From the NCBI RefSeq assembly GCF_030732845.1, contig NZ_JASHKA010000007.1, positions 1-64,000 of the forward strand: DNA of 64,000 nucleotides, given 5' to 3'. The stretch comes from Roseibium sp. MMSF_3544 (lineage in GTDB: Bacteria > Pseudomonadota > Alphaproteobacteria > Rhizobiales > Stappiaceae). Positions 52,850-64,000 of this stretch are shown here, piece after piece. The notes under the pieces are model-generated. The model saw only the letters and a list, made by a program, of their open reading frames with translations. It did not search any database and was not told the origin of the DNA. The position numbers were made by a program, and so were the translations under genes. Each line of letters opens with the position of its first letter. Position 1 is the stretch's first letter.

Positions 52850-52926
52850 GGGCCTGTAGCTCAATTGGTTAGAGCCGTCCGCTCATAACGGATTGGTTGG
52901 GGGTTCGAGTCCCTCCGGGCCCACCA
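52850..52926 (+). tRNA. tRNA-Ile (CAT anticodon)
   Basis: A 77-base cloverleaf with encoded CCA. Acceptor GGGCCTG/CGGGCCC, D-arm GCTC/GAGC, anticodon loop CTCATAA with U33 and CAT anticodon, T-arm GGGGG TTCGAGT CCCTC. The body resembles tRNA-Ile2, whose C34 is changed to lysidine to read AUA, rather than initiator or elongator tRNA-Met. No integrase or duplicated 3' end is seen nearby. Confidence 0.9.
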
Positions 52927-53073: not shown

Positions 53074-53090
53074 ATGTTATATAGTAACGT
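53074..53090 (+). promoter_or_regulatory. Zur-box-like site upstream of zur
   Basis: ATGTTATATAGTAACGT. The GTTATA/AGTAAC arms fit alphaproteobacterial Zur boxes. It matches the site at 61036-61052 in 14 of 17 positions. It lies 33 bases before the zur start. Confidence 0.7.
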
Positions 53091-53122
53091 AATCGCAGAA
53101 GCAGGATCGCTGGAGGCACTTG

Positions 53123-53524
53123 ATGAATACGCGGGGAGAAATGTGGCAGGCAGAGATCCTTCGGGTTCTGAACCGGCACCATACTCCGATTTCAGCTTAT
53201 GACGTTCTGGAAACCTTGCGCGAGACCCATGAAAAAATCTCGCCGCCGACGATTTACCGTGCGCTGTCGGCGCTGACGAAACGCGGGCGTGTGCATCGAG
53301 TGGAATCCCTAAACGCCTTTATTGCCTGCCAGTGCGGCCAGCACCAGCACACATCGATCCTGTCAATTTGTGAAGACTGTGGCGCTGTCGAGGAGAGCGT
53401 CGCCCCAAAGATTCTGAAAGACCTTTCGAGCGTGATCGGAAAATCCGGATTTTCTCCAATGCGTCATGTGATCGAAGTGCACGGCACATGTGCTTCCTGT
53501 GGTTCGAGGAAGGCACAGTCATGA
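53123..53524 (+). CDS. zur: Zinc uptake regulator, Fur family
   Basis: A 133-residue Fur-family repressor. The winged helix is EILRVLNRHHTPISAYDVLETLRE and ISPPTIYRALSALTKRGRVHRVESLNAF. Zur-type metal ligands are in ACQCGQHQHTSI, and the structural-zinc cysteine pairs are ICEDCG and GTCASCG. GGAGG precedes the ATG. It sits ahead of znuCBA, which supports Zur over Fur. The box upstream suggests it represses its own operon when zinc is plentiful. Confidence 0.92.
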   Translation: MNTRGEMWQAEILRVLNRHHTPISAYDVLETLRETHEKISPPTIYRALSALTKRGRVHRVESLNAFIACQCGQHQHTSILSICEDCGAVEESVAPKILKDLSSVIGKSGFSPMRHVIEVHGTCASCGSRKAQS

Positions 53525-53649
53525 GCGCCCAAAAATCACTGCGACTGCTGCTCGTTGGAGCGGGTGCCCGGCTCATCGGTGCGGTTATTGTTGTGGCCGC
53601 ACTCTGGGCCGGCTTTTACTGGGCAACATCGACACCGGGGGCCTTATGA
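53521..53649 (+). CDS. 42-residue membrane protein between zur and znuC
   Basis: A short frame starting MSAQKSLRLLLVGAGARLIG and ending ATSTPGAL. It has a basic N-terminus and one hydrophobic segment of about 20 residues (VIVVAALWAGFYW core). Its ATG overlaps the zur stop and its stop overlaps the znuC start, so it fills the 121-base zur-znuC spacer exactly and would couple their translation. It has no family I recognise. It could be a small subunit or regulator of the ZnuBC transporter, or just a coupling leader. Confidence 0.6.
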   Translation: MSAQKSLRLLLVGAGARLIGAVIVVAALWAGFYWATSTPGAL

Positions 53650-54389
53650 CATCTGCTCTCGCGTTCAAAGACCTCACGTTAGGCTATGACCGGCTTCCTG
53701 CCGTGCAACAGCTTCGGGCCGATATTGCGGAAGGCAGCCTTACGGCGATCGTTGGACCAAACGGCGCCGGCAAGTCGACATTGCTCAAGGGCGTGACGGG
53801 CGCGCTGGCGCCCTTGCAAGGTAAGGTGGATCTCGGTTCGCTGGAGCGCGACGACATTGCCTATCTGCCGCAGCAGTCCGACATCGACCGTTCTTTCCCT
53901 CTGTCTGTGGTCGATCTCGTGGCCATGGGATTGTGGCGTGAGATCGGGCCATTCGGCTGGCTCGGCAAAAAGCAGCGGGCGCGCGTCGATGCCGCCATTG
54001 CGTCCGTGGGTCTGACAGGGCTTGAGTCGCGTCCGATCGGCTCGCTGTCCGGCGGCCAAATGCAACGCGCACTTTTTGCAAGGCTTCTCCTGCAGGACGC
54101 TCATCTGGTGCTGCTGGATGAACCCTTCACCGCAATCGATGCCCGTACGATGGCCGATCTTATCGAAGTTGTTCGCAGTTGGCACAAGGAAGGACGCACG
54201 GTCCTGGCTGTGCTGCATGATGCGGAAACCGTTCGTGCTCACTTTCCCGAAACGCTTATGCTGGCGCGCGAACTCGTGGCACACGGGCCGACCGAACAGG
54301 TGATGACCGCTGAAAACCAGTTTCGTGCCCGCCAGATGTGCGAGGCGTGTGCCGGGCCACCTCACGTTTGTGGGCGGGATGCGGCATGA
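53646..54389 (+). CDS. znuC: Zinc ABC transporter ATPase
   Basis: A 247-residue ATPase. Walker A GPNGAGKSTLLKG near residue 38, signature SLSGGQMQRALFARLL near 136, Walker B LVLLDEPFTAIDARTM near 157 and the switch His in AVLHD are intact. The C-terminal CEACAGPPHVCGRD has three cysteines that may sense or bind zinc. It powers high-affinity zinc import with ZnuB and ZnuA. The start overlaps the stop of the 42-residue ORF. Confidence 0.93.
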   Translation: MTSALAFKDLTLGYDRLPAVQQLRADIAEGSLTAIVGPNGAGKSTLLKGVTGALAPLQGKVDLGSLERDDIAYLPQQSDIDRSFPLSVVDLVAMGLWREIGPFGWLGKKQRARVDAAIASVGLTGLESRPIGSLSGGQMQRALFARLLLQDAHLVLLDEPFTAIDARTMADLIEVVRSWHKEGRTVLAVLHDAETVRAHFPETLMLARELVAHGPTEQVMTAENQFRARQMCEACAGPPHVCGRDAA

Positions 54390-55255
54390 TCTGGGAAGCT
54401 GTCATTCAACCGTTCGCCGATTTCGGCTTCATGCGGCGCGCACTGCTCGGATGTATCGCGGTCTCGCTGGGCGCGACGCCTGTGGGCGTGTTTTTGATGC
54501 TCCGGCGCATGAGCCTGACCGGAGATGCGATGGCTCACGCAATCCTGCCGGGGGCCGCCGTCGGTTTCCTCGTGGCGGGGCTATCGCTCGGCGCCATGAC
54601 CATTGGCGGACTGATCGCCGGGATGGCCGTGGCGCTTTTGTCTGGCCTCGTGACCCGCGTGACGGCCTTGCGCGAAGATGCCAGCCTGGCAGCGTTCTAT
54701 CTTATCTCCCTTGCGCTTGGCGTTCTGATTGTTTCCACGCGCGGCAGCAATGTTGATCTGATGCATGTGCTGTTCGGCACGGTTCTGGCGCTTAACGACG
54801 CGGCGCTCATCCTGTTGTGCTCAATCGCCAGCATTTCGGTTCTGATCCTTGCTGTCCTGTTCAGACCGCTTGTTCTGGAATGTGCGGACCCGCAGTTCCT
54901 GCGCTCCGTCAGCCGGCTCAGCGCTGTCACACATTTTACCTTCCTCTCGCTCGTGGTGTTGAACCTCGTTGGCGGTTTTCACGCCCTCGGTACGCTCATG
55001 GCCGTTGGGATCATGATCTTGCCGGCCGCTGCCGCGCGCTTCTGGGCCAACAGCATCGGCGGGTTGATCTTTGTCGCGATCGCCGTCGCATTTCTGTCGA
55101 GCCTGAGCGGCCTTTTGCTTTCTTACCACTACAGCTTGCCGTCCGGGCCAGCGATCATCCTCGTAGCCGGGATCGTCTACGCGGTGTCCCTGGTGCTTGG
55201 TCCGGCAGGTGGTCTCATCGCACAGGTGCTGCCACGCCGGCCCTTGCAGAACTGA
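54386..55255 (+). CDS. znuB: Zinc ABC transporter permease
   Basis: A 289-residue membrane protein of the ABC-3 (metal) permease family with about eight helices. LGATPVGVFLMLRRMSLTGDAMAHAILPGAAVGFL near the start and GGFHALGTLMAVGIMILPAAAARFW near 205-230 are family signatures. Its ATG overlaps the znuC stop. Confidence 0.93.
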   Translation: MIWEAVIQPFADFGFMRRALLGCIAVSLGATPVGVFLMLRRMSLTGDAMAHAILPGAAVGFLVAGLSLGAMTIGGLIAGMAVALLSGLVTRVTALREDASLAAFYLISLALGVLIVSTRGSNVDLMHVLFGTVLALNDAALILLCSIASISVLILAVLFRPLVLECADPQFLRSVSRLSAVTHFTFLSLVVLNLVGGFHALGTLMAVGIMILPAAAARFWANSIGGLIFVAIAVAFLSSLSGLLLSYHYSLPSGPAIILVAGIVYAVSLVLGPAGGLIAQVLPRRPLQN

Positions 55256-55266
55256 AAGGAAATTTC

Positions 55267-56529
55267 ATGAAGTCCCGCAGAACCGTCCTGAGGTCCGCGA
55301 CCGCTCTTGTCGCTCTCTCCCTGATGTCCCCAACGATCGCTTGGGCAGATGATCATAAGCATGTTGTCGCGACCTTCTCCGTCCTGGGCGACATGGTCGA
55401 GCGTATCGGCGGCGATCATATCGAGTTGACCACTCTGGTCGGCCCGGATGGCGACGCGCACGTCTACCAGCCGACTCCCCAGGACGCACGCGCCGTGAGC
55501 GAAGCGGATGTGCTGATTGTAAACGGACTTGAGTTTGAGGGCTGGCTGGAGCGCTTGTCCGAGGCGGCAGACTTCAAGGGAACGCTTGTCGTTGCCACGA
55601 CCGGCATCGAGGCCATTCCTTTTGAAGAGGGCGACGACCACGACGACCACGACGACCATGACGACCATGGTGATGATCACGCCGAAGCCGAGCATGATCA
55701 CGACGACCACGATCACGAAAAACATGCGGATCATGACGACCACGATCATGAAAAGCATGAGGAACACGCAGAGGCTGAACACGATCACGACCATGATCAC
55801 GAAAAACATGCGGATCATGATGACCACGATCATGAAAAGCATGAGGAACATGCCGAAGCCGAGCACGACCACGACGATCACGATCACGAAAAACATGCGG
55901 ACCATGACGACCACGATCATGACAAGCATGAGGAACATGCCAAGGCAGAAGATGGTCACGATGACCACGCTGGCCACGACCACCACGGTCACAATCATGG
56001 GGCGTTTGACCCGCATGCTTGGCAGAGCCTCGACAATGCGGTGATCTATGTCGACAACATCACTGCCGCGCTCGCAAAGGCCGACCCAGCTCATGCAGGC
56101 GTTTTCTACGAAAACCGCGAAGCTTACGTCGCAGAGATCAAGGCGCTCGAAGCTGAAATCGACGCGATGATCGCAGCCGTACCCGAAGATCGCCGGACGG
56201 TCGTCACGTCCCATGATGCCTTTGGCTATTTTGCAGACCATTACGGACTGACATTCGAAGCACCGCAGGGCCTCAGCACGGAAAGCGAGCCGTCAGCCGC
56301 TGATGTTGCCGAGCTGATCACCCAGATCCGCGAAGACGGCATCTCTGCCGTGTTCGTGGAGTCGATTACCGACAACCGGCTGCTCGAGCAGATTGCAAAC
56401 GAGACAGGTGCGACGATCGGCGGGACGCTTTACTCGGATGCGCTGTCGGGCGGTGACGGCCCGGCTGGAACGTATCTCGACATGATGCGTCACAACGCAA
56501 AGACATTGTCGGACGCGCTCGGGTCCTGA
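55267..56529 (+). CDS. znuA: Zinc ABC transporter substrate-binding protein with giant His loop
   Basis: A 420-residue periplasmic zinc-binding protein, about 100 residues longer than usual. The signal sequence has SRRTVLRSA, a twin-arginine-like motif. GDAHVYQPTPQDARAV holds the first zinc His. A His/Asp/Glu loop at about residues 122-240 carries three 28-29-residue repeats. GAFDPHAWQSLDN and VTSHDAFGYFADHYGL hold the further zinc His residues, and TLYSDALS the last ligand Asp. The loop probably captures zinc in the periplasm and passes it to the cleft. Confidence 0.94.
   Translation: MKSRRTVLRSATALVALSLMSPTIAWADDHKHVVATFSVLGDMVERIGGDHIELTTLVGPDGDAHVYQPTPQDARAVSEADVLIVNGLEFEGWLERLSEAADFKGTLVVATTGIEAIPFEEGDDHDDHDDHDDHGDDHAEAEHDHDDHDHEKHADHDDHDHEKHEEHAEAEHDHDHDHEKHADHDDHDHEKHEEHAEAEHDHDDHDHEKHADHDDHDHDKHEEHAKAEDGHDDHAGHDHHGHNHGAFDPHAWQSLDNAVIYVDNITAALAKADPAHAGVFYENREAYVAEIKALEAEIDAMIAAVPEDRRTVVTSHDAFGYFADHYGLTFEAPQGLSTESEPSAADVAELITQIREDGISAVFVESITDNRLLEQIANETGATIGGTLYSDALSGGDGPAGTYLDMMRHNAKTLSDALGS
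55678..55953 (+). repeat. In-frame tandem repeats coding the ZnuA His loop
   Basis: Units of 87, 84 and 87 bp at 55678-55764, 55765-55848 and 55849-55935, then a partial fourth. Each encodes HAEAEHDHDDHDHEKHADHD and the following nine residues with few changes. Unit 2 lacks one codon. High identity suggests recent expansion and possible length variation between strains. Confidence 0.85.
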
Positions 56530-56556
56530 GGCGACATGAGGTCGTGACTTTGGCGA

Positions 56557-56601
56557 GACCGGTCGTTCTGCGATCCTGAACGGTGGCAGTGACGACCGGT
56601 C
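56557..56601 (+). terminator. Hairpin between znuA and the alcohol dehydrogenase gene
   Basis: GACCGGTCGT/ACGACCGGTC, a perfect ten-pair stem with a 25-base loop, 27 bases after znuA, followed by CGTCCTTTC. It may end the znu transcript or act as an attenuator before the dehydrogenase. Confidence 0.5.
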
Positions 56602-56646
56602 CGTCCTTTCAAAACTTTTGCATTCATCTATTCAGGGAGGTCCAAA

Positions 56647-57810
56647 ATGAAAACGCGTGCTGCCATTGCCTGGGCACCGAACCAACCGCTCGAAATCGAG
56701 GAAATTGACCTCGAAGGTCCCAGAGAGGGAGAGGTGCTTGTCCGGATCGTGACGACAAGTCTCTGCCACACGGATGTTTTCACCCTTTCGGGTGAAGACC
56801 CGGAGGGCCTGTTTCCGTGCATCCTCGGCCATGAAGGCTGTGGTATCGTCGAAGAGGTTGGCAAGGGTGTCACGTCGGTCGCACCGGGCGACCATGTCAT
56901 TCCGCTCTACATCCCGGAAGATCCCGATTGCCCCTATATCAAGTCGGGCAAAACCAATCTTTGCCAGACGATCCGCAAGACCCAGGGCGCGGGGCTGATG
57001 CCGGACGGCACGTCGCGCTTTTCCTACAAGGGCAAGCAGATCCTTCACTACATGGGCACCAGCACGTTCAGCGAATACACCGTGCTGCCTGAAATCTCAG
57101 TTGCAAAGATCACCAAGGACGCGCCGCTTTCCAAGGCCTCCGTTATGGGCTGTGCGGTTCCGACCGGTATCGGCGCTGTGCGCAACACCGCAAAGGTCGA
57201 AGCCGGTGCGACGGTTGCTGTCTTCGGCCTTGGGGCGGTCGGCATGGCGGTGATCCAGGGCGCGGTGCTGAACGGTGCTTCCAAGATCATCGGCATTGAC
57301 ATCAATACGGCAAAGTTCCCGCTTGCGAAGGCGCTCGGGGCCACTGAATGCCTCAATCCGAAGGACTATGACACGCCGATCCAGAACGTCCTGGTCGAGA
57401 TGACCAATGGCGGCCTGGACTACACATTCGAGGCGGTTGGAAATGTCGAGTTGATGCGCTCCGCCCTTGAAGCATGCCACAAAGGCTGGGGTGAGTGCAC
57501 GGTGATCGGCGTTGCCGGCGCCGGACAGGAGATCGCAACACGACCCTTCCAGCTGGTCACCGGCCGGGTGTGGCGCGGGACGGCCTTTGGCGGTGTCCTG
57601 GGCCGCAGCCAATTGCCGGGAATGGTCGATGAATGGCTGCGAGGCGATTTCAGCGTGGATCCCTATATCACGCATCACATGAACCACGAGCAGATCAACA
57701 CGGCGTTTGATCTTCTCAAAGCAGGCGAGTCGATCCGGTCGGTCATTCATTTCCGCCCGAGCGACACAATGACGGTCAATTCGCTTCCCGGGAAAATTGT
57801 TCCGGCTTAA
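56647..57810 (+). CDS. Class III alcohol dehydrogenase paralog lacking full structural zinc site
   Basis: A 387-residue protein of the S-(hydroxymethyl)glutathione dehydrogenase family (FrmA/AdhC), which oxidises the formaldehyde-glutathione adduct. Catalytic zinc ligands are kept: C40 (SLCHTD), H62 (GHEG) and C169 (GCAVPTG). In the structural lobe the usual four cysteines are reduced: [17 protein letters not shown] gives D92, C95, I98, C106, so two of four are gone without change in length. NAD-binding [10 protein letters not shown] and GIDIN are intact. GGGAGG precedes the ATG. Next to znuA, this fits a form needing one zinc instead of two. Confidence 0.9.
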
Positions 57811-57841
57811 GGCGAAACCGTTCCCTCTATAGGGGTCTCAT

Positions 57842-57878
57842 GAGCAGCGGGCCGGGTGTCTTGCACCGCCCGCTGCTC
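57842..57878. terminator. Strong hairpin between convergent genes
   Basis: GAGCAGCGGGC/GCCCGCTGCTC, an eleven-pair perfect stem with a 15-base loop, 32 bases after the dehydrogenase stop. No T-run, but the stem is strong enough to act for both convergent units. Confidence 0.6.
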
Positions 57879-57998
57879 AACCGCTTCAAGGAAAGAGTCT
57901 GCTTCCTTGCAGTGTCTGCACCCTCAGCGCCTCGCGCCGAATATCAGATCGGGCGCCTTTCTTCGTTGGCTCGGTGTTAAGGGCGATAGCCCTTCTGA

Positions 57999-58274
57999 TC
58001 ATGCCTTCACGTCCGCCGCTTCGGCGACATCCGCCTTTGTCACGTCAGCCATCGTCGTGTGAACCCGGATCGTAACGATGGGCTTGTCCGGTTCCAGCAC
58101 GCCGATCACTGTTTCGATGTCGGGACAACCTTCTTCACGGCAGGCGAGTTCAGCGACGGTGATCGCTGTATCTTCCGGCAGCTGCATCAGCTCACGAACC
58201 CAGCCCTTTATTTCCGTCGACCTGTTTTTCAACCGCGTGAATTTTGGTGCGAGCGGATTGTGGAACCTTGTCAT
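57999..58274 (-). CDS. 91-residue protein coupled to COG0523 GTPase
   Basis: A small protein starting MTRFHNPLAPKFTRLKNR, with ITVAELACREEGCPDIETVIGVL near residue 40-62 and KPIVTIRVHTTMADVTKADV at the end. Two cysteines in an ACREEGCP arrangement could bind metal or form a disulfide. Its ATG overlaps the stop of the upstream GTPase gene. I do not recognise a characterised family. Context says it works with the zinc GTPases, perhaps as an effector or target. Confidence 0.72.
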   Translation of the reverse strand: MTRFHNPLAPKFTRLKNRSTEIKGWVRELMQLPEDTAITVAELACREEGCPDIETVIGVLEPDKPIVTIRVHTTMADVTKADVAEAADVKA

Positions 58275-59260
58275 TCCGCAGCAACTCCTCGCGGAACGAC
58301 ACACTGCCGGAAGCCGTCTTCGATGGCATCGCGCGGCAGATCGCGTCCAATGAAGACGAGCCGGGAGGTCCGTGGTTCGTCCGCTTTCCAGGGCCTTTGA
58401 TGATCGCCTTCCAGCAGCATGTGAACACCTTGCATCACAAAGCGGTCGTCATCGTTGTCAAACGCGATGATCCCCTTCATGCGCAACATGTCGGGGCCAT
58501 GATTTTGTGCGATCGCCTGCATCCAGGGAAAGAACCTTTCCGGATCGAGCGGAGCGTCGCTCACAAGCGAGAAACTCGTGACGTGATCGTCGTGGTCGTG
58601 ATCATGGAAATGCTTTAAGAACTCCGGTTCGATTTCAAGCACCCGGTCCAGATCGAAGGCATTGCGCCCAAGAATTTCATCAAGCGCCACCTGGCAGCGT
58701 TCGCTGTCGTGGATCTGTGCCGTCGGATTGATCCTGCGGATCCGTTTTGCGACTTCGGCGCGTTCCTCACTGCTGACAAGATCGATCTTGTTCAGAAGGA
58801 CAATATCGGCAAAGGCCAATTGTTCCTGGGCTTCATGTGCCTTGTCGATTTCCTCCAGCAAATGCTTGGCATCAACGACGGTCACAATCGCATCAAGCTT
58901 GGTCTTGGATTGCACGTCTTCATCAACAAAGAAGGTCTGGGCAACCGGAGCCGGATCGGCCAGTCCTGTCGTTTCGATCAGGATCGCGTCAAAATGGTTA
59001 CGTCGTTTCATCAAGCCTTCGATGATGCGGATAAGGTCACCGCGCACCGTGCAGCAGATACAGCCGTTGTTCATTTCAAAGACTTCTTCGTCCGCATCCA
59101 CAACGAGATCGTTGTCGATGCCGACATCGCCGAATTCATTGACGATGACCGCGTATTTCTTGCCGTGGTTTTCAGAAAGTATGCGGTTGAGCAAGGTGGT
59201 TTTACCTGCGCCCAGGTAACCGGTGAGCACGGTGACAGGTGTTCTCTGCAAAGCGTTCAT
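58271..59260 (-). CDS. COG0523 zinc metallochaperone GTPase (first)
   Basis: A 329-residue G3E GTPase. Walker A GYLGAGKTTLLNRIL near residue 15, the zinc-binding motif CICC in NNGCICCTVRGDLIRII near 70, and NKID near 160. A His/Asp stretch HFHDHDHDDH lies near 225, and a CobW C-terminal domain follows. COG0523 proteins such as ZagA/ZigA hand zinc to client enzymes in zinc shortage. GGAGG precedes the ATG at 59260. Both ends overlap neighbours. Confidence 0.92.
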   Translation of the reverse strand: MNALQRTPVTVLTGYLGAGKTTLLNRILSENHGKKYAVIVNEFGDVGIDNDLVVDADEEVFEMNNGCICCTVRGDLIRIIEGLMKRRNHFDAILIETTGLADPAPVAQTFFVDEDVQSKTKLDAIVTVVDAKHLLEEIDKAHEAQEQLAFADIVLLNKIDLVSSEERAEVAKRIRRINPTAQIHDSERCQVALDEILGRNAFDLDRVLEIEPEFLKHFHDHDHDDHVTSFSLVSDAPLDPERFFPWMQAIAQNHGPDMLRMKGIIAFDNDDDRFVMQGVHMLLEGDHQRPWKADEPRTSRLVFIGRDLPRDAIEDGFRQCVVPRGVAAE

Positions 59261-60435
59261 TGCGACCTCCGAGAAATACTGGTGAGGGTTGAGAAGGCTC
59301 GGGTAAACGAAGCCCAAAAGGCGTTGCCTGCCTTTTTGAAGGACCCGGAAAAGGAAAACGGAACGGCGTCGATAACGGCTGTGAACAGTGCGCGCACCGG
59401 CTCGGGATCGACACCGTCGGTGATGAAGACGAGCCGGGTGCGGCGGTCCTCGTCGGGCCAGGCCGGGAGCCGAACGGGTCTGGAAACGACATGTTGCACC
59501 GCATGGACAATCAGCGGTTCCTCAGGCGTGGCTTCAGTCGAGACGATCCCTTTGACACGGAGCAGGCGCTGCCCTGCCGAATCCTGCAGGAGGGAAAGAA
59601 ACCGGCGAAACTTCTGCTCGGGCAGGGGAGTGTCACTGACAATGCTGAAGGTGCGAATACCGGCCCCGTGTCTGAGTTGGCCATTTTTCTGGTCGGTCCG
59701 GGTGGCGTGACCTGCTTCAAGCGCCAGCGCGGCTTCCAATGCCAGCCACCCGGCAACATCTTCTCCGCGATCCAAGACGGCGTAGGGTCTTGGAGAAAAC
59801 AAGGCTGAGACATCTGCTGACTGACGATCCAGGATCTCGGCGCTTGCGTTGAGTTCTCGCAGTTCGTTCGAAAGAGCTGCGAAATCCGCTGGCGTCTCCA
59901 GATTGCTCGCCAGGTCCGTCTTCGTCAGGACGATCCGATCGGCGAAAGCGATCTGTTTGAGCGCTTCGAAGTGGTTTTCAACCGAACTTGCACCTGCAAC
60001 CGCATCGAACAGCGTCACAACCCCGGCTAGATAAAACTCAATGGATTTGGCGTCACCTTGCGGTTGCTCAGTCCCGTTTTTTTCGCCAGAGAGTGCGTTG
60101 ACCAGCGGAGCCGGATCACCAAGCCCGCTCATCTCGACAATCACGCGCGAGAATTTGCCCGTCACGCCCTCCAAAGCGGCGCTGCTGAGATCCTGAAGCG
60201 TTTGGTGGATGTCTGTCGTGTCCGAGCAGCACAGGCAGCCTGTCGAAACCTGGCTGATTGTCGTTTCCCCCCGGCGCACGAGCAGGTGATCGACCGGCAC
60301 TTCCCCGAATTCGTTGATGATAACGGCTGTATCCTGAACCGACGGATCATTCAAAAACGTGTTCAACAAGGTTGACTTGCCCGAACCGAGAAATCCGCTC
60401 AGCAAAATGACAGGTATGCGGCCGGGGGTGTTCAT
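59257..60435 (-). CDS. COG0523 zinc metallochaperone GTPase (second)
   Basis: A 392-residue G3E GTPase: SGFLGSGKSTLLNTFL near residue 14, CLCC in STGCLCCSDTTDIHQTL near 70, and VLTKTDLA near 170. It differs clearly from its neighbour and lacks the His stretch, so the pair probably serves different clients. I chose MNTPGRIPV at 60435; a longer reading to 60477 adds a basic tail unlike the family. Stop overlaps the next GTPase start. Confidence 0.9.
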   Translation of the reverse strand: MNTPGRIPVILLSGFLGSGKSTLLNTFLNDPSVQDTAVIINEFGEVPVDHLLVRRGETTISQVSTGCLCCSDTTDIHQTLQDLSSAALEGVTGKFSRVIVEMSGLGDPAPLVNALSGEKNGTEQPQGDAKSIEFYLAGVVTLFDAVAGASSVENHFEALKQIAFADRIVLTKTDLASNLETPADFAALSNELRELNASAEILDRQSADVSALFSPRPYAVLDRGEDVAGWLALEAALALEAGHATRTDQKNGQLRHGAGIRTFSIVSDTPLPEQKFRRFLSLLQDSAGQRLLRVKGIVSTEATPEEPLIVHAVQHVVSRPVRLPAWPDEDRRTRLVFITDGVDPEPVRALFTAVIDAVPFSFSGSFKKAGNAFWASFTRAFSTLTSISRRSQ

Positions 60436-60492
60436 GAAGGTCCAGTCACTTGGTCTAGTGCGCCTTTTCGCATTCAAAGCTCCACGCTGGCT

Positions 60493-60915
60493 TCAAACGC
60501 AGCGTGAGGAGTGGTGTCCGGTGATCAGCCAGCGCGACCCGATCTCTTCGAAGGTGAACAGAAAGCGCGCGGGCACGGTTTCATCCCCGGCGGGCCGATG
60601 AAAGCAAAACGTGTAAATGCCGCCAATCGCGACAGTGCAGCGAATGCGGTCGGTTCTTATTTTCTCAAAGTCGATCGCGCAGTCAGGGCCGCCATCGGTC
60701 AAGAAAAATTCGAAATAGCGGCGGCGCCCGTCCTCCGTGACAACGATTTCGTTGGACAAGGTGGGTACGAGAATTGCGTCTGGAGCATAAAGATCCAGGA
60801 TCTCATCGATCCGACCCGATGCCACAGCTTCCGTCCATTTTGTCATGGTTGCGCGCGCGTGTTCCAAAGGCGAACGTTCACGATTATTTGCGTGGTTAGC
60901 CAGGCTCTGTTCCAA
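60493..60915 (-). CDS. SnoaL/SgcJ-like protein in the zinc operon
   Basis: A 140-residue NTF2-like protein: EHARATMTKWTEAVASGRIDEILDLYAPDAILVPTLSN and ARFLFTFEEIGSRWLITGHHSS, typical of the SgcJ/EcaC group. I chose the TTG at 60915, preceded by AGGGG, because residues before the later ATG (60846) fit the family. It is the first gene of the minus-strand operon with the two GTPases. The conserved GHHSS end may bind metal, but a zinc role is inferred only from location. Confidence 0.75.
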   Translation of the reverse strand: MEQSLANHANNRERSPLEHARATMTKWTEAVASGRIDEILDLYAPDAILVPTLSNEIVVTEDGRRRYFEFFLTDGGPDCAIDFEKIRTDRIRCTVAIGGIYTFCFHRPAGDETVPARFLFTFEEIGSRWLITGHHSSRCV

Positions 60916-61035
60916 ATTTTGCCCCTATTTTCACCCAACGATCCTGCCGGCGACACGGTATCGGAAACGTTTGATCCGGCACTTTGTCGCGCTTGACCGG
61001 AATCGGCGGGTGCGCCATTTCCATCTTGAAATGTT

Positions 61036-61052
61036 ATGTTATATCGTATCAT
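61036..61052. promoter_or_regulatory. Zur-box-like site between divergent zinc operons
   Basis: ATGTTATATCGTATCAT, sharing 14 of 17 positions with the site before zur. It lies about 120 bases upstream of the minus-strand GTPase operon and 129 bases upstream of folE, so one site could control both. Confidence 0.65.
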
Positions 61053-61180
61053 GTCCAAATCAAGGAAGTTCGATTTTGCTTATCCCGAAGGAAAGAACGG
61101 CCTTCAGAAGGGCTCTATCTGAAACGGGCGATAGCGTGAGTGATCCAGTGTCCGGATTTTTGCGCAAGCGCGCTCATTGA

Positions 61181-61882
61181 ATGCCGCGCCAAGACAAAGC
61201 AACTCAGCCCGGAAAATCAACGACAGAGGTTTTGAATAGTATGACTTATGCTGCGAGTGTTGCGGCCATGGCAGAGTACAGAAAAGAACACGGGATCCGG
61301 CCTTCGCGCGCGGATGCTGAAGCTGCTGTCCGTGTTTTGCTGGAATGGAGTGGCGATGATCCCGATCGCGAGGGATTGGTCGATACACCGTCCCGCGTTG
61401 TGCGCGCCTATGAAGAATTTTTCGAGGGATACAAGATCGATCCGGCGGAGCTGCTTGCCCGCACATTCGAAGAGACAGCCGACTACGACGATTTGATCGT
61501 GCTTCGGAACATGCGGCTGGAGTCGCATTGCGAACATCACGTTGTGCCGATTATCGGGAAAGTGCACGTGGCGTATCTTCCGGCAAACCGGGTTGTCGGC
61601 ATCAGCAAAATTGCGCGTGTTGTGGAGGTTTATGCCAAGCGTCTTCAGATCCAGGAGACGCTCACGTCCCAGATTGCCGACACGATTCAGGAAGTGCTTC
61701 AACCCCGCGGCGTTGCCGTCGTTATCGAAGCAGCGCACATGTGCATGACCACCCGCGGGGTCAAGAAACCGGGTGTATCCATGCTGACGCGGCGGCTTCT
61801 CGGCGCCTTTCAAACGGATCCGGAGCTCCGCAGGGACTTCCTCTCCTCTGTCGCGGTGGCCAGCGGAGGGCAGGGCGCGTGA
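61181..61882 (+). CDS. folE: GTP cyclohydrolase I
   Basis: A 233-residue enzyme making 7,8-dihydroneopterin triphosphate from GTP, the first step to folate. The zinc ligands are all present: Cys and His in [21 protein letters not shown] and Cys in [16 protein letters not shown]. So this is the zinc-dependent type, not the metal-flexible FolE2. Its position beside COG0523 GTPases suggests a copy loaded by a chaperone under zinc shortage. ATG at 61181 has a weak ribosome site; internal ATGs at 61240 and 61270 are possible. Confidence 0.92.
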
Positions 61883-62355
61883 CGGACAACAAACCTTTTG
61901 CGAACCGGATTTCCGTCGAACAGGTCGAAGAAGGTGCGCTGCTGGCGCCCAAATTCGACGGAAACGGTCTTTTGCCCGTCGTCACCACCGACGCTGAGAC
62001 AGGCGAGGTGTTGATGATGGGCGTCATGAACGAAGAAGCCCTGCTTCGAACGATCCGATCAGGTGAAGCGCATTACTGGAGCCGCAGCCGAAAGTGCCTT
62101 TGGCACAAGGGAGCGACAAGCGGGCTTGTCCAGAAGGTTGTCGAAATCCGAATTGACGACGATCAGGACGCGGTCTGGCTGCGCGTCGCCGTTGAAGGTG
62201 GTGCCAGCTGCCACGTCGGCTACCGCTCCTGCTTTTATCGTGCGGTTCCGGTGACGACAGATGAGGGGCCGATCGAATTGAGCTTCAAGGAGACAGAGAA
62301 GGCCTTCGACCCGGTCGAGGTCTATGGTGACGCTCCAAACCCAACCCAGTTGTGA
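61879..62355 (+). CDS. hisI: Phosphoribosyl-AMP cyclohydrolase
   Basis: A 158-residue HisI enzyme of histidine synthesis. [32 protein letters not shown] opens the fold, [13 protein letters not shown] binds substrate, [12 protein letters not shown] holds the Mg-binding acids, and [13 protein letters not shown] has the zinc cysteines. The GTG start overlaps the folE stop. No other his genes are nearby, so this is probably a second copy placed in the zinc regulon, a pattern known for hisI paralogs near COG0523 genes. Confidence 0.92.
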
Positions 62356-62361
62356 TGGCTG

Positions 62362-62417
62362 TTCGCCGGGAAAACGGACATTCGCTCACTATGGGCGTGT
62401 GTCCGTATCCCGGCGAA
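62362..62417. terminator. Long hairpin between hisI and the His-rich gene
   Basis: TTCGCCGGG/CCCGGCGAA plus ACGGACA/TGTCCGT, sixteen pairs with a small internal loop and a 19-base apical loop. Lies between convergent genes and probably stops transcription both ways. Confidence 0.6.
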
Positions 62418-62462
62418 GATTACGCAAAGACTGTCTTACTTCCTTGCGCCCGCGAAAAGCAG

Positions 62463-62816
62463 TCAGACGACCTCGACCGGGCCGTGATCGTCACAGTGAC
62501 CGTTATGCGGGTGATGCAGGCGGCCGTTCACCAGGTAGCAGATATGGTCGCCATGTGGCACTGCTTCGTGGCCACAGCCAGGGCCATGAACGTGATCCGG
62601 ATCGTGGCCAAGTTCACTGGAGCCAACCGGAGCGCATCCGCCGGGATTGGTCGCTGAGACCTCTATGACATGTTCTTCCACGTGATCTCCATCCTGGTGA
62701 TGAAGGTGACCGTCGTGGAGATAGTCGACATGGTCTCCGTGGCGAATGCCGGTGTGGCCGCAATTGGGTCCGTGCACGTGATCGTGGTTGGGGTCGTCGT
62801 TGTGGTCGCTGGTCAT
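62463..62816 (-). CDS. Two-repeat His/Cys-rich metal-binding protein
   Basis: A 117-residue protein made of two similar units, residues 10-45 and 71-107. Each follows HVHGPxCGH, four residues, HGDH, two residues, YL, then LHH. Each contains one CGH and many histidines. No signal peptide. It likely binds zinc or a similar ion in the cytoplasm as a buffer. Its ATG overlaps the stop of the SmtB-type sensor gene, so the sensor and the binder are made together. Confidence 0.8.
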   Translation of the reverse strand: MTSDHNDDPNHDHVHGPNCGHTGIRHGDHVDYLHDGHLHHQDGDHVEEHVIEVSATNPGGCAPVGSSELGHDPDHVHGPGCGHEAVPHGDHICYLVNGRLHHPHNGHCDDHGPVEVV

Positions 62817-63202
62817 GAATTCTCTCCTTGGTCTTCCAAATCTGTCGCGGTGTCTTCAGCCGCATGGTCCAGAATGTCGCGCAAAAGATGCGCCACGTGA
62901 TGGTCTGCAAGCGCGTAGTAGATGTGTTTGGCTTCACGCCGCCGCGTCACAAGCCGGGCTGAATGAAGAAGTTTGAGACGTGCGGATACCGTTGCGACTT
63001 TCTCATCTTCTTCTGCCGCCAGCTCGGTGACGCATCTTTCGCCACTTGCCAGCAACACCAGGATGCGCAGGCGCGCCGTATCTCCTGCAGCGCGTAGCAT
63101 CATGGCCGCGCTTTCGACGGTCGCCATTGCAGGCAAGGTCAGGGGCGGGCGTTTCTGGTGACTGCTTTCGTCGCAGCTCGGTACGTCAGAATGATCGGTC
63201 AT
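62813..63202 (-). CDS. SmtB/CzrA-type zinc-sensing ArsR repressor
   Basis: A 129-residue repressor. The HTH is CVTELAAEEDEKVATVSARLKLLHSARLV. The alpha-5 site has D100-x-H102-x10-H113-x2-E116 (DHHVAHLLRDILDHAAE), exactly the zinc-binding spacing of SmtB, CzrA and ZiaR. It thus releases DNA when zinc is high. It controls its own operon and perhaps the facing metallothionein gene through the inverted repeat at 63216-63237. Confidence 0.93.
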   Translation of the reverse strand: MTDHSDVPSCDESSHQKRPPLTLPAMATVESAAMMLRAAGDTARLRILVLLASGERCVTELAAEEDEKVATVSARLKLLHSARLVTRRREAKHIYYALADHHVAHLLRDILDHAAEDTATDLEDQGENS

Positions 63203-63215
63203 CTCATTATTCTGT

Positions 63216-63237
63216 CATTCAATGGATTGATAGAATG
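63216..63237. promoter_or_regulatory. Candidate SmtB-type operator
   Basis: CATTC-N12-GAATG, an imperfect AT-rich dyad 14 bases before the repressor start and 160 bases before the metallothionein gene. Dimensions fit ArsR/SmtB sites. Confidence 0.5.
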
Positions 63238-63397
63238 TCATAGGCAAAGCTGTCTCTCAAGCAAAATCGGAGCCTCGATCGAAATCGTCTCCTCCGATCT
63301 CGGGTCGGGGCTGAAAAATTTCTTTGCGGAAAGTGTAAGGATCGCGCTCCGGCGTCCGTCATATGACCAGGTACACCAAAAAACCACGGAGAAACCA

Positions 63398-63556
63398 ATG
63401 GCCGGTTCCAAGTCATGCGCCTGCGAGAATTGCCCCCCTTCCTGCAATTGCGCGCAGAGAACGCCCGGGGACCAGGGGTGTTGTTGCGGTGACAAGTGCA
63501 CCTGCAAGGACTGTACTTGCGGGCCTGAGTGCGGGTGTCCAAACAGGGCGAAATGA
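63398..63556 (+). CDS. Metallothionein
   Basis: A 52-residue protein with 14 cysteines, arranged as CxC, CxxC and CCC clusters (SCACENC, CNC, GCCCGDKCTCKDCTCGPECGC). It has no hydrophobic core and is a bacterial metallothionein that holds several Zn(II) or Cu(I)/Cd(II) ions. CGGAGAAACC precedes the ATG. The longer upstream frame from 63158 is not coding by style. It faces the SmtB gene and probably shares its control. Confidence 0.9.
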   Translation: MAGSKSCACENCPPSCNCAQRTPGDQGCCCGDKCTCKDCTCGPECGCPNRAK

Positions 63557-63570
63557 GCTAGATTCTGGCT

Positions 63571-64000
63571 ATGCCGGAGTTTGATCCAAATGCGTGCGTT
63601 GCCTCCGCATTGCGGTCCCATCGGGGGGACTTGATGCGGTATGTGTCGTCCCGGGTGCCTCCGGGCGACGTGGAAGACGTGCTTCAACTTGCGGCGCTGC
63701 GTGCCATTGAAAGGGCCGGGGACCTTCGGGACCCGGCGTTGGTTCTGCGTTGGCTTTATCGCGTTCACGCCAATGTCGCGATCGACCTCAGCCGCAAGAA
63801 TGCGAGCGAGCGGCGCTTGCGCGAGGCAATGGCAGTCGAGGACGAACCTGTCGAGAGCCGGGACAAACCCGTTTGTGGCTGCAGTGTCGCGCTCGCTCGG
63901 CAGCTCGGCAGCAACTACGCTTCGATCCTCGACCTCGTCGACATTTCCGGTAAATCACTCAACCAGGCGGCAGAGGCTCTCAATATTTCCGTCAACAACG
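63571..64000 (+). CDS. ECF sigma factor with internal Cys-x-Cys, 3' end outside window
   Basis: 143 codons visible. Region 2 is RYVSSRVPPGDVEDVLQLAALRAIERAGDLRDPALVLRWLYRV, followed by a linker with KPVCGCSVALARQL (C102, C104), then region 4 (LDLVDISGKSLNQAAEALNISVNN). It starts 14 bases after the metallothionein stop and is probably co-transcribed. The Cys pair between regions 2 and 4 could sense metal or redox state directly, as in metal-responsive ECF factors. The rest of region 4 and any anti-sigma gene lie outside. Confidence 0.8.
   Translation, partial: MPEFDPNACVASALRSHRGDLMRYVSSRVPPGDVEDVLQLAALRAIERAGDLRDPALVLRWLYRVHANVAIDLSRKNASERRLREAMAVEDEPVESRDKPVCGCSVALARQLGSNYASILDLVDISGKSLNQAAEALNISVNN

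Follow-up and report, generated by a model that had tools for sequence, protein, structure and literature searches.

In Mycobacterium, surplus and starvation sensors for zinc adjoin each other in an smtB-zur operon, and in Synechococcus the smtAB locus pairs the gene of an SmtB-type repressor with a divergent metallothionein gene. Passages of Haas 2009 (PMC2770081) describe zinc starvation clusters, controlled by Zur, that combine zur and a zinc ATP-binding cassette (ABC) importer with COG0523 GTPases and zinc-enzyme paralogues, HisI and FolE2 among them. The AztABCD importer of Paracoccus denitrificans and its Zur sites are treated in excerpts from PMC5387054, and CorE-like extracytoplasmic function (ECF) sigma factors are defined in parts of PMC8999054 by a CxC linker and a Cys-rich C-terminal extension. 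Here we analysed a 64-kb stretch of DNA from the marine bacterium Roseibium sp. MMSF_3544 (the window), which is the start of a 297-kb contig in a genome of 6.88 Mb and contains a zinc locus spanning 53074..64125, whose last gene, for a sigma factor, extends beyond the window end.

The locus resembles the clusters of Haas 2009 in carrying zur, an Azt-like zinc ABC importer, two COG0523 GTPases and a folE2-hisI2 pair, but adds a class III alcohol dehydrogenase (ADH) paralogue (AdhC2), a HisI2 with one lost zinc residue, and adjoining surplus modules with an SmtB-type sensor and a CorE-like ECF sigma factor. The importer gives its best profile matches to AztA, AztB and AztC, and the Zur sites are nearly identical to those of P. 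denitrificans, whereas aztD does not adjoin aztC, where adhC2 stands instead (this concerns the locus only, as no search for aztD was made elsewhere in the genome), and the importer is linked to zur, adhC2 and folE2-hisI2. In contrast to smtAB, the SmtB operon here holds the gene for a His/Cys two-repeat protein (HisRep), and the metallothionein-like gene (MT) is paired with the sigma factor gene and has a promoter candidate of its own. The sigma factor shares the CxC linker and Cys-rich extension of CorE/CorE2, but its gene lies 14 bp behind that of a metallothionein. Unlike in the Mycobacterium operon, the two zinc sensors have separate promoters and operators, and effector genes of both arms are present. 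All the zinc genes named in an earlier note on this DNA were found, by profile search or, for MT and HisRep, called from the sequence.

We conclude that the locus is modular and mobile instead of a fixed block, and that it has three sensor circuits instead of two. The arms are of known kinds; new are the way they adjoin, the loss of ligands in AdhC2 and HisI2, and the HisRep family, which has no model. Our reading of the locus as a mobile and modular island for zinc homeostasis, in which three sensor circuits (famine, surplus and sigma) adjoin, has, in our estimate, a probability of about 0.7. The famine side comprises the features below, with the start of zur revised to the ATG at 53123, as was the end of the sigma gene, to 64125.

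53074..53088, strand unassigned: Zur site before zur-aztABC; the minus strand reads GTTACTATATAACAT, 1 mismatch to the P. denitrificans znuA Zur site
53123..53524, plus strand: zur (Fur family); Pfam FUR 56.9 bits; highest-scoring NCBIfam model Zur (113 bits, under the cut-off, 167)
53646..54389, plus strand: aztA, zinc ABC ATPase; NCBIfam AztA 228 bits, cut-off 220; Pfam ABC_tran
54386..55255 (ATG 54386), plus strand: aztB, permease; AztB 270 bits, cut-off 280; ABC-3
55267..56529 (ATG 55267), plus strand: aztC, zinc-binding protein with a His-rich loop; ZnuA family; AztC 303 bits, cut-off 350
56647..57810, plus strand: adhC2, class III ADH paralogue; TIGR02818 637 bits, cut-off 544
57999..58304 (start uncertain), minus strand: small101, about 101 aa, last gene of the GTPase operon; no family model
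58271..59260, minus strand: cobW1, COG0523 GTPase with GCICC motif and a His-rich stretch; Pfam cobW and CobW_C
59257..60477, minus strand: cobW2, COG0523 GTPase with GCLCC motif; Pfam cobW and CobW_C
60493..60915, minus strand: SnoaL/NTF2-like protein, first gene of the GTPase operon; Pfam SnoaL_3
61033..61050, strand unassigned: overlapping Zur-like sites in the divergent folE/snoaL promoter; 14/15 to the P. denitrificans znuA site
61181..61882, plus strand: folE2, FolE paralogue keeping its zinc ligands; Pfam GTP_cyclohydroI
61879..62355, plus strand: hisI2, HisI paralogue with Asp for the Cys of the D-C-D motif; phosphoribosyl-AMP cyclohydrolase profile

The importer, previously named znuCBA, is indeed a zinc ABC importer, but its profile scores fit Azt better than Znu: AztA exceeds its curated cut-off, with AztB and AztC below theirs, and the Znu models (ZnuC 89, ZnuB 74 and ZnuA 70 bits) all fall far below their cut-offs. 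A tandem repeat of 84-87 bp in about three copies (55671-55969 of the window) codes for the His-rich loop of AztC, whose length is possibly variable among strains.

As a reference for Zur sites we took five P. denitrificans sites from the table of PMC5387054, leaving out a sixth, weak norC site. Only two places in the window, 53074-53088 and 61036-61050, are within two mismatches of any of these. Both agree at 14 of 15 positions with a Paracoccus site whose promoter fragment, according to the same excerpts, shifts with Zur, and none of 20 simulated windows held a match with one mismatch or less. The site before zur is also present in G065 and G067 (G, L and C numbers are our handles for genomes, loci and contigs), and the folE/snoaL site occupies one shared alignment column in 8/8 genomes; its shuffle frequencies are modest for any single genome (0 to 8%), and its strength is the common position. 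The proposal of starvation and buffering functions in one locus is thus borne out in so far as Zur sites lie at the starvation genes and a separate operator, described below, at the surplus-side genes. With a gap of 117 bp, adhC2 may be expressed by read-through from aztC.

The block or its modules recur across other genomes, so the locus is no chance assembly. Orthologues of cobW2 (66-75% identity) were found in eight further genomes, making 9/87 family genomes with this one, and the core hisI-folE-snoaL-cobW2-cobW1-small101 is complete in eight of the nine orthologous loci, the ninth (G066) being cut by a contig end. Conservation of the whole block as a single syntenic unit, the check proposed in the earlier note, was not found; the gene sets are co-inherited though rearranged. 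The order zur-aztABC-adhC2-core-HisRep-smtB is intact here and in G065, so that the 53-63 kb arrangement (without MT-sigma) has its only intact counterpart there. In G067 an internal deletion of the block left an in-frame adhC'-'hisI fusion (L059 1738-2217), and the long block must therefore once have existed in that genome. G060 holds all modules on two contigs, with smtB-HisRep on the opposite side of the core and zur-azt on a separate contig. Two clusters that are more distant show a similar theme: in G053, zur-aztABC stands beside cobW2-cobW1-small101, with azt genes 45-64% identical, and in G071 zur occurs with a zinc ABC importer, cobW and folE2-hisI2; neither gave HisRep or smtB matches.

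Among 45 congeneric genomes, aztB (at least 94% identity) and HisRep occur in the identical four, which would have a chance of 6.7e-6 for independent genomes, although the genomes are in fact non-independent; on a rough two-gene tree this pattern needs three changes and that of the core eight. The sister pair G065/G067 has common flanks, which differ from those of G000 and of G060, and these two also differ from each other. The pattern is consistent with linked modules that were repeatedly transferred or lost. Starvation and surplus circuits would thus travel together while being reshuffled.

The same variability could also mean that the modules are mere neighbours in a metal-gene island gathered by recombination, with independent parts and no functional coupling. 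This view draws support from the variable order, the separate contigs of G060, a phage-type integrase (L091 9300-10517) that in G060 lies about 0.4 kb from sigma, next to the zur-azt-adhC2-MT-sigma module, and a tblastn search (E 1e-15) that found no HisRep in L222-L229, eight plasmid stretches with AdhC2, HisI2 or both. However, the four Roseibium genomes with HisRep are also those with aztB, though the two genes are unlinked in G060, and HisRep adjoins znu/zur/COG0523 genes in Paraburkholderia and G417; we regard mere proximity as possible rather than probable. As an island attachment site, the tRNA-Met at 52850 was rejected, its last 14 bases having no exact second copy in the window or up to contig position 90000.

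Within the famine arm, AdhC2 and HisI2 are candidate zinc-thrift enzymes. AdhC2, a formaldehyde dehydrogenase that would apparently go from two zincs to one per subunit, retains the catalytic C/H/C ligands, and in its structural-zinc Cys4 lobe two of four Cys are replaced (Cys 1 by D, Cys 3 by I). At least two of the four structural Cys are lost in 18/18 AdhC2 copies (at least 75% identity), one of which also lacks position 2; the scarred G067 row was left out of this count, as the motif lies beyond the break. All four were kept in each of the 61 canonical class III ADHs compared (53 other matches in the genus and 8 in the order). On plasmids, adhC2 adjoins zigA/COG0523, hisI2, folE, Fur or zinc ABC genes in all six loci inspected (three Paracoccus, Gluconobacter, Sagittula and Tritonibacter; six of nine records at 80-90% identity), of which three were opened through their hisI2 and only the other three are unbiased.

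In HisI2 the metal site is changed, Asp replacing a Cys that we take to be one of three zinc ligands. This change is found in 15/15 intact paralogues (10/10 in the genus and 5/5 opened on alphaproteobacterial plasmids, where 35 records matched the search, only part of them of the HisI2 type), and the G067 remnant has Asn at this position. The 45 housekeeping HisI of the genus all retain the three Cys, none with the change to Asp. The replaced Cys aligns with a Cys of the solved HisI 1zps. In passages of Haas 2009 (PMC2770081), HisI paralogues of gamma- and betaproteobacteria retain their zinc residues, and alcohol dehydrogenase is not among the nine enzyme families given there; the parts of a Zur review (PMC6103462) that bear on this mention zinc-free ADH paralogues in general terms, and excerpts of the P. 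denitrificans RNA-seq text do not mention any dehydrogenase. In the open-licence PubMed Central (PMC) literature we recognised no description of a zinc-thrift AdhC2 or of the HisI2 ligand loss, and both look new at the level of their sequences.

The surplus module consists of three features.

62463..62816, minus strand: HisRep, His/Cys two-repeat protein, candidate zinc buffer
62813..63202, minus strand: smtB, ArsR/SmtB repressor with alpha5 D-x-H-x10-H-x2-E; NCBIfam HTH_metalloreg 71 bits, cut-off 55; HTH_5
63207..63240 (core 63217-63236), strand unassigned: candidate SmtB operator, ATTCTA-N8-TTGAAT (minus strand), some 34 bp ahead of smtB

HisRep has 24 His and 5 Cys in 117 aa, its repeats being identical at 20 of 38 positions. 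Across 16 family members 20 columns are invariant, 13 of them His (30 columns in the 14 less divergent members). The window protein matched no Pfam or NCBIfam model and only one PHROGs entry, at E 0.2, and four other members had no Pfam match; nor did we recognise a description of HisRep in the open-licence PMC literature. The family ranges over Proteobacteria, Firmicutes and Actinobacteria, with 5/87 family genomes, 6/398 phylum genomes, 15 plasmid records (7 opened) and one viral contig. On that IMG/VR contig a 67% identical gene (L143 3977-4324) lies among genes judged phage-like by eye, and the family may travel by phage. A 49-aa, one-repeat relative in Rhodococcus (L108 4971-5120) is annotated as 'zinc transporter permease', a label that its size makes implausible.

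The alpha5 motif DxHx10HxxE is that of SmtB-type zinc sites, and it is present in all six HisRep-linked ArsR proteins (this genome, G065, G060, G067, Pantoea and Pediococcus). The sequence ATTCTA-N8-T(A/T)GAAT starts 32-34 bp upstream of smtB in 4/4 Roseibium loci and is perfect in a Pantoea plasmid ArsR-HisRep operon, 26 bp upstream of the annotated ArsR; of the 17 regions tested in all, these five each had 0/500 shuffles as good. It is missing at the 11 HisRep loci without ArsR (98 to 499 of 500 shuffles as good). No convincing Zur-like site precedes HisRep in the 16 members, the best, in Pantoea, having two mismatches and lying over the operator region before ArsR. Of 18 HisRep loci, partly judged by eye, six have ArsR neighbours, six zinc uptake or COG0523 genes (the four Roseibium loci count in both), and one a cation-efflux gene.

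From its composition, type of regulator and company we infer that HisRep buffers zinc. Tentatively, it would be an unrecognised, phylum-crossing zinc-buffer family under an SmtB-type sensor, tied by co-inheritance to a zinc importer, and would serve as a 'zinc bank' that fills when zinc is plentiful and is drawn on in famine, alongside AdhC2 and HisI2 with their lost zinc ligands. Such reserves are an open question in bacteria, for which a widespread, unmodelled His/Cys family could matter. About as plausible is that HisRep-SmtB and MT-sigma detoxify Cd, Co, Cu or excess Zn and hold no zinc reserve. Metallothioneins bind Cd and Cu, and in G286, a genome of the same taxonomic order, HisRep precedes a cation diffusion facilitator (CDF) efflux gene on the same strand (L094 9269-10384). 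Parts of PMC8999054 describe CorE of Myxococcus as a Cu sensor and CorE2 as a sensor of Cd/Zn. Against detoxification stand the co-inheritance with the zinc importer and COG0523 genes and the absence of any metal-efflux family among the scanned proteins of the block.

The third circuit has its own promoter candidate.

63334..63360, plus strand: ECF-type promoter candidate of MT-sigma, TGTAAG-N17-CGTC
63398..63556, plus strand: MT, metallothionein-like, 52 aa with 14 Cys
63571..64125 (window cut at 64000), plus strand: CorE-like ECF sigma factor; Pfam Sigma70_r2 and r4_2

MT matched no Pfam or NCBIfam model, and its Cys content gives it its name. The sigma factor has the CxC linker KPVCGCS and the Cys-rich C-terminus CGVTSPSSCNDCKCAYEGCC, both kept in the 79% identical G060 copy, which together with an 81% identical MT lies behind zur-aztABC-adhC2 and a gene that, by eye, resembles one for D-lactate dehydrogenase. 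The promoter motif is the sole such site in the window and recurs with identical spacing before MT in G060 (2/2 loci). The sigma factor was found in 2/87 family genomes (E 1e-25), with MT-sigma near zur-azt-adhC2 in both, and in none of 384 other genomes of the class at E 1e-30, where up to eight first-look candidates per genome were scored. Since MT-sigma has its own candidate promoter and its G060 copy has no SmtB operator nearby, it is probably outside the SmtB circuit. A cyanobacterial smtAB-like pair with MT controlled by SmtB, which the divergence of MT and smtB here and the operator between them would suggest, is very unlikely and was rejected, as the operator core is separated from smtB by about 34 bp and from MT by 161 bp, the G060 MT has neither smtB nor an operator match in its 18-kb stretch, MT has its own promoter candidate, and the stretches around smtB in G065, G067 and G060 gave no MT match (E 1e-4).

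With three circuits, Zn-Zur would repress zur-aztABC(-adhC2) and the divergent folE2-hisI2 and snoaL-cobW2-cobW1-small101 operons, so that falling zinc would lead to production of the importer, with the COG0523 GTPases allocating zinc. AdhC2, lacking the structural zinc, and HisI2, with its altered site, may need less zinc or another metal, and together with the extra FolE these paralogues could sustain formaldehyde detoxification and histidine and folate synthesis under shortage. SmtB would repress smtB-HisRep until its alpha5 site is filled by zinc, and derepressed HisRep would bind spare zinc, probably as a reversible buffer, which may be useful because a derepressed importer can overshoot on re-feeding. 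The CorE-like sigma factor would be metal-activated through its own Cys domains and probably transcribe itself and MT. The direction of these responses, the identity of the metal, the buffer role and the sigma autoregulation are drawn by us from the gene content, candidate sites, ligand losses and co-inheritance observed here.

Several observations weigh against this picture. Sites of the alpha5 type also serve Co, Ni and Cd sensors. The operator is missing at the Pediococcus ArsR locus (393/500 shuffles as good). Nine of the 18 HisRep loci have no evident zinc-linked neighbour, so HisRep need not serve this circuit everywhere, and G028, of the same family, has HisRep with neither azt nor a detected smtB. 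The predicted HisRep structure is poor (predicted local distance difference test, pLDDT, 48) and unfit for fold search. The two-gene tree is based on 455 columns. On the famine side, we found no Zur site immediately in front of either aztA or adhC2 of this genome, and a relaxed genome-wide scan for GTTATGTTATAAC with one mismatch was weak, giving 3 sites against 2 for a reversed-pattern control; the Zur case therefore rests on the match to the Paracoccus site. Finally, FolE2 fits FolE I models and not the zinc-independent FolE_IB/FolE2 type, a non-IA enzyme without the IA zinc site. Its C/H/C residues, at what we take to be the zinc-ligand positions, are retained in each of the 18 paralogue rows, which represent 13 distinct loci, and their retention would speak against a pure zinc-sparing story.

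A second folE-hisI pair of this genome is on contig C29. At L099 4166-5252 the housekeeping hisI and folE adjoin each other, and folE2-hisI2 may on this account have arisen as a duplicated pair. Both GTPases belong to COG0523 by their cobW and CobW_C domains and GCxCC motif, and the true start of cobW2 is possibly the ATG at 60435, as the matches of several relatives begin at residue 15. No Pfam, NCBIfam or PHROGs model matched small101, which lies behind cobW1 or cobW2 in relatives of several genera, including G007, G008, G009 and G010. Among the three loci found in named records with a matching GTPase, the closest are those of Roseibium sp. MMSF_3412 (72%) and a Roseibium metagenome-assembled genome (70%).

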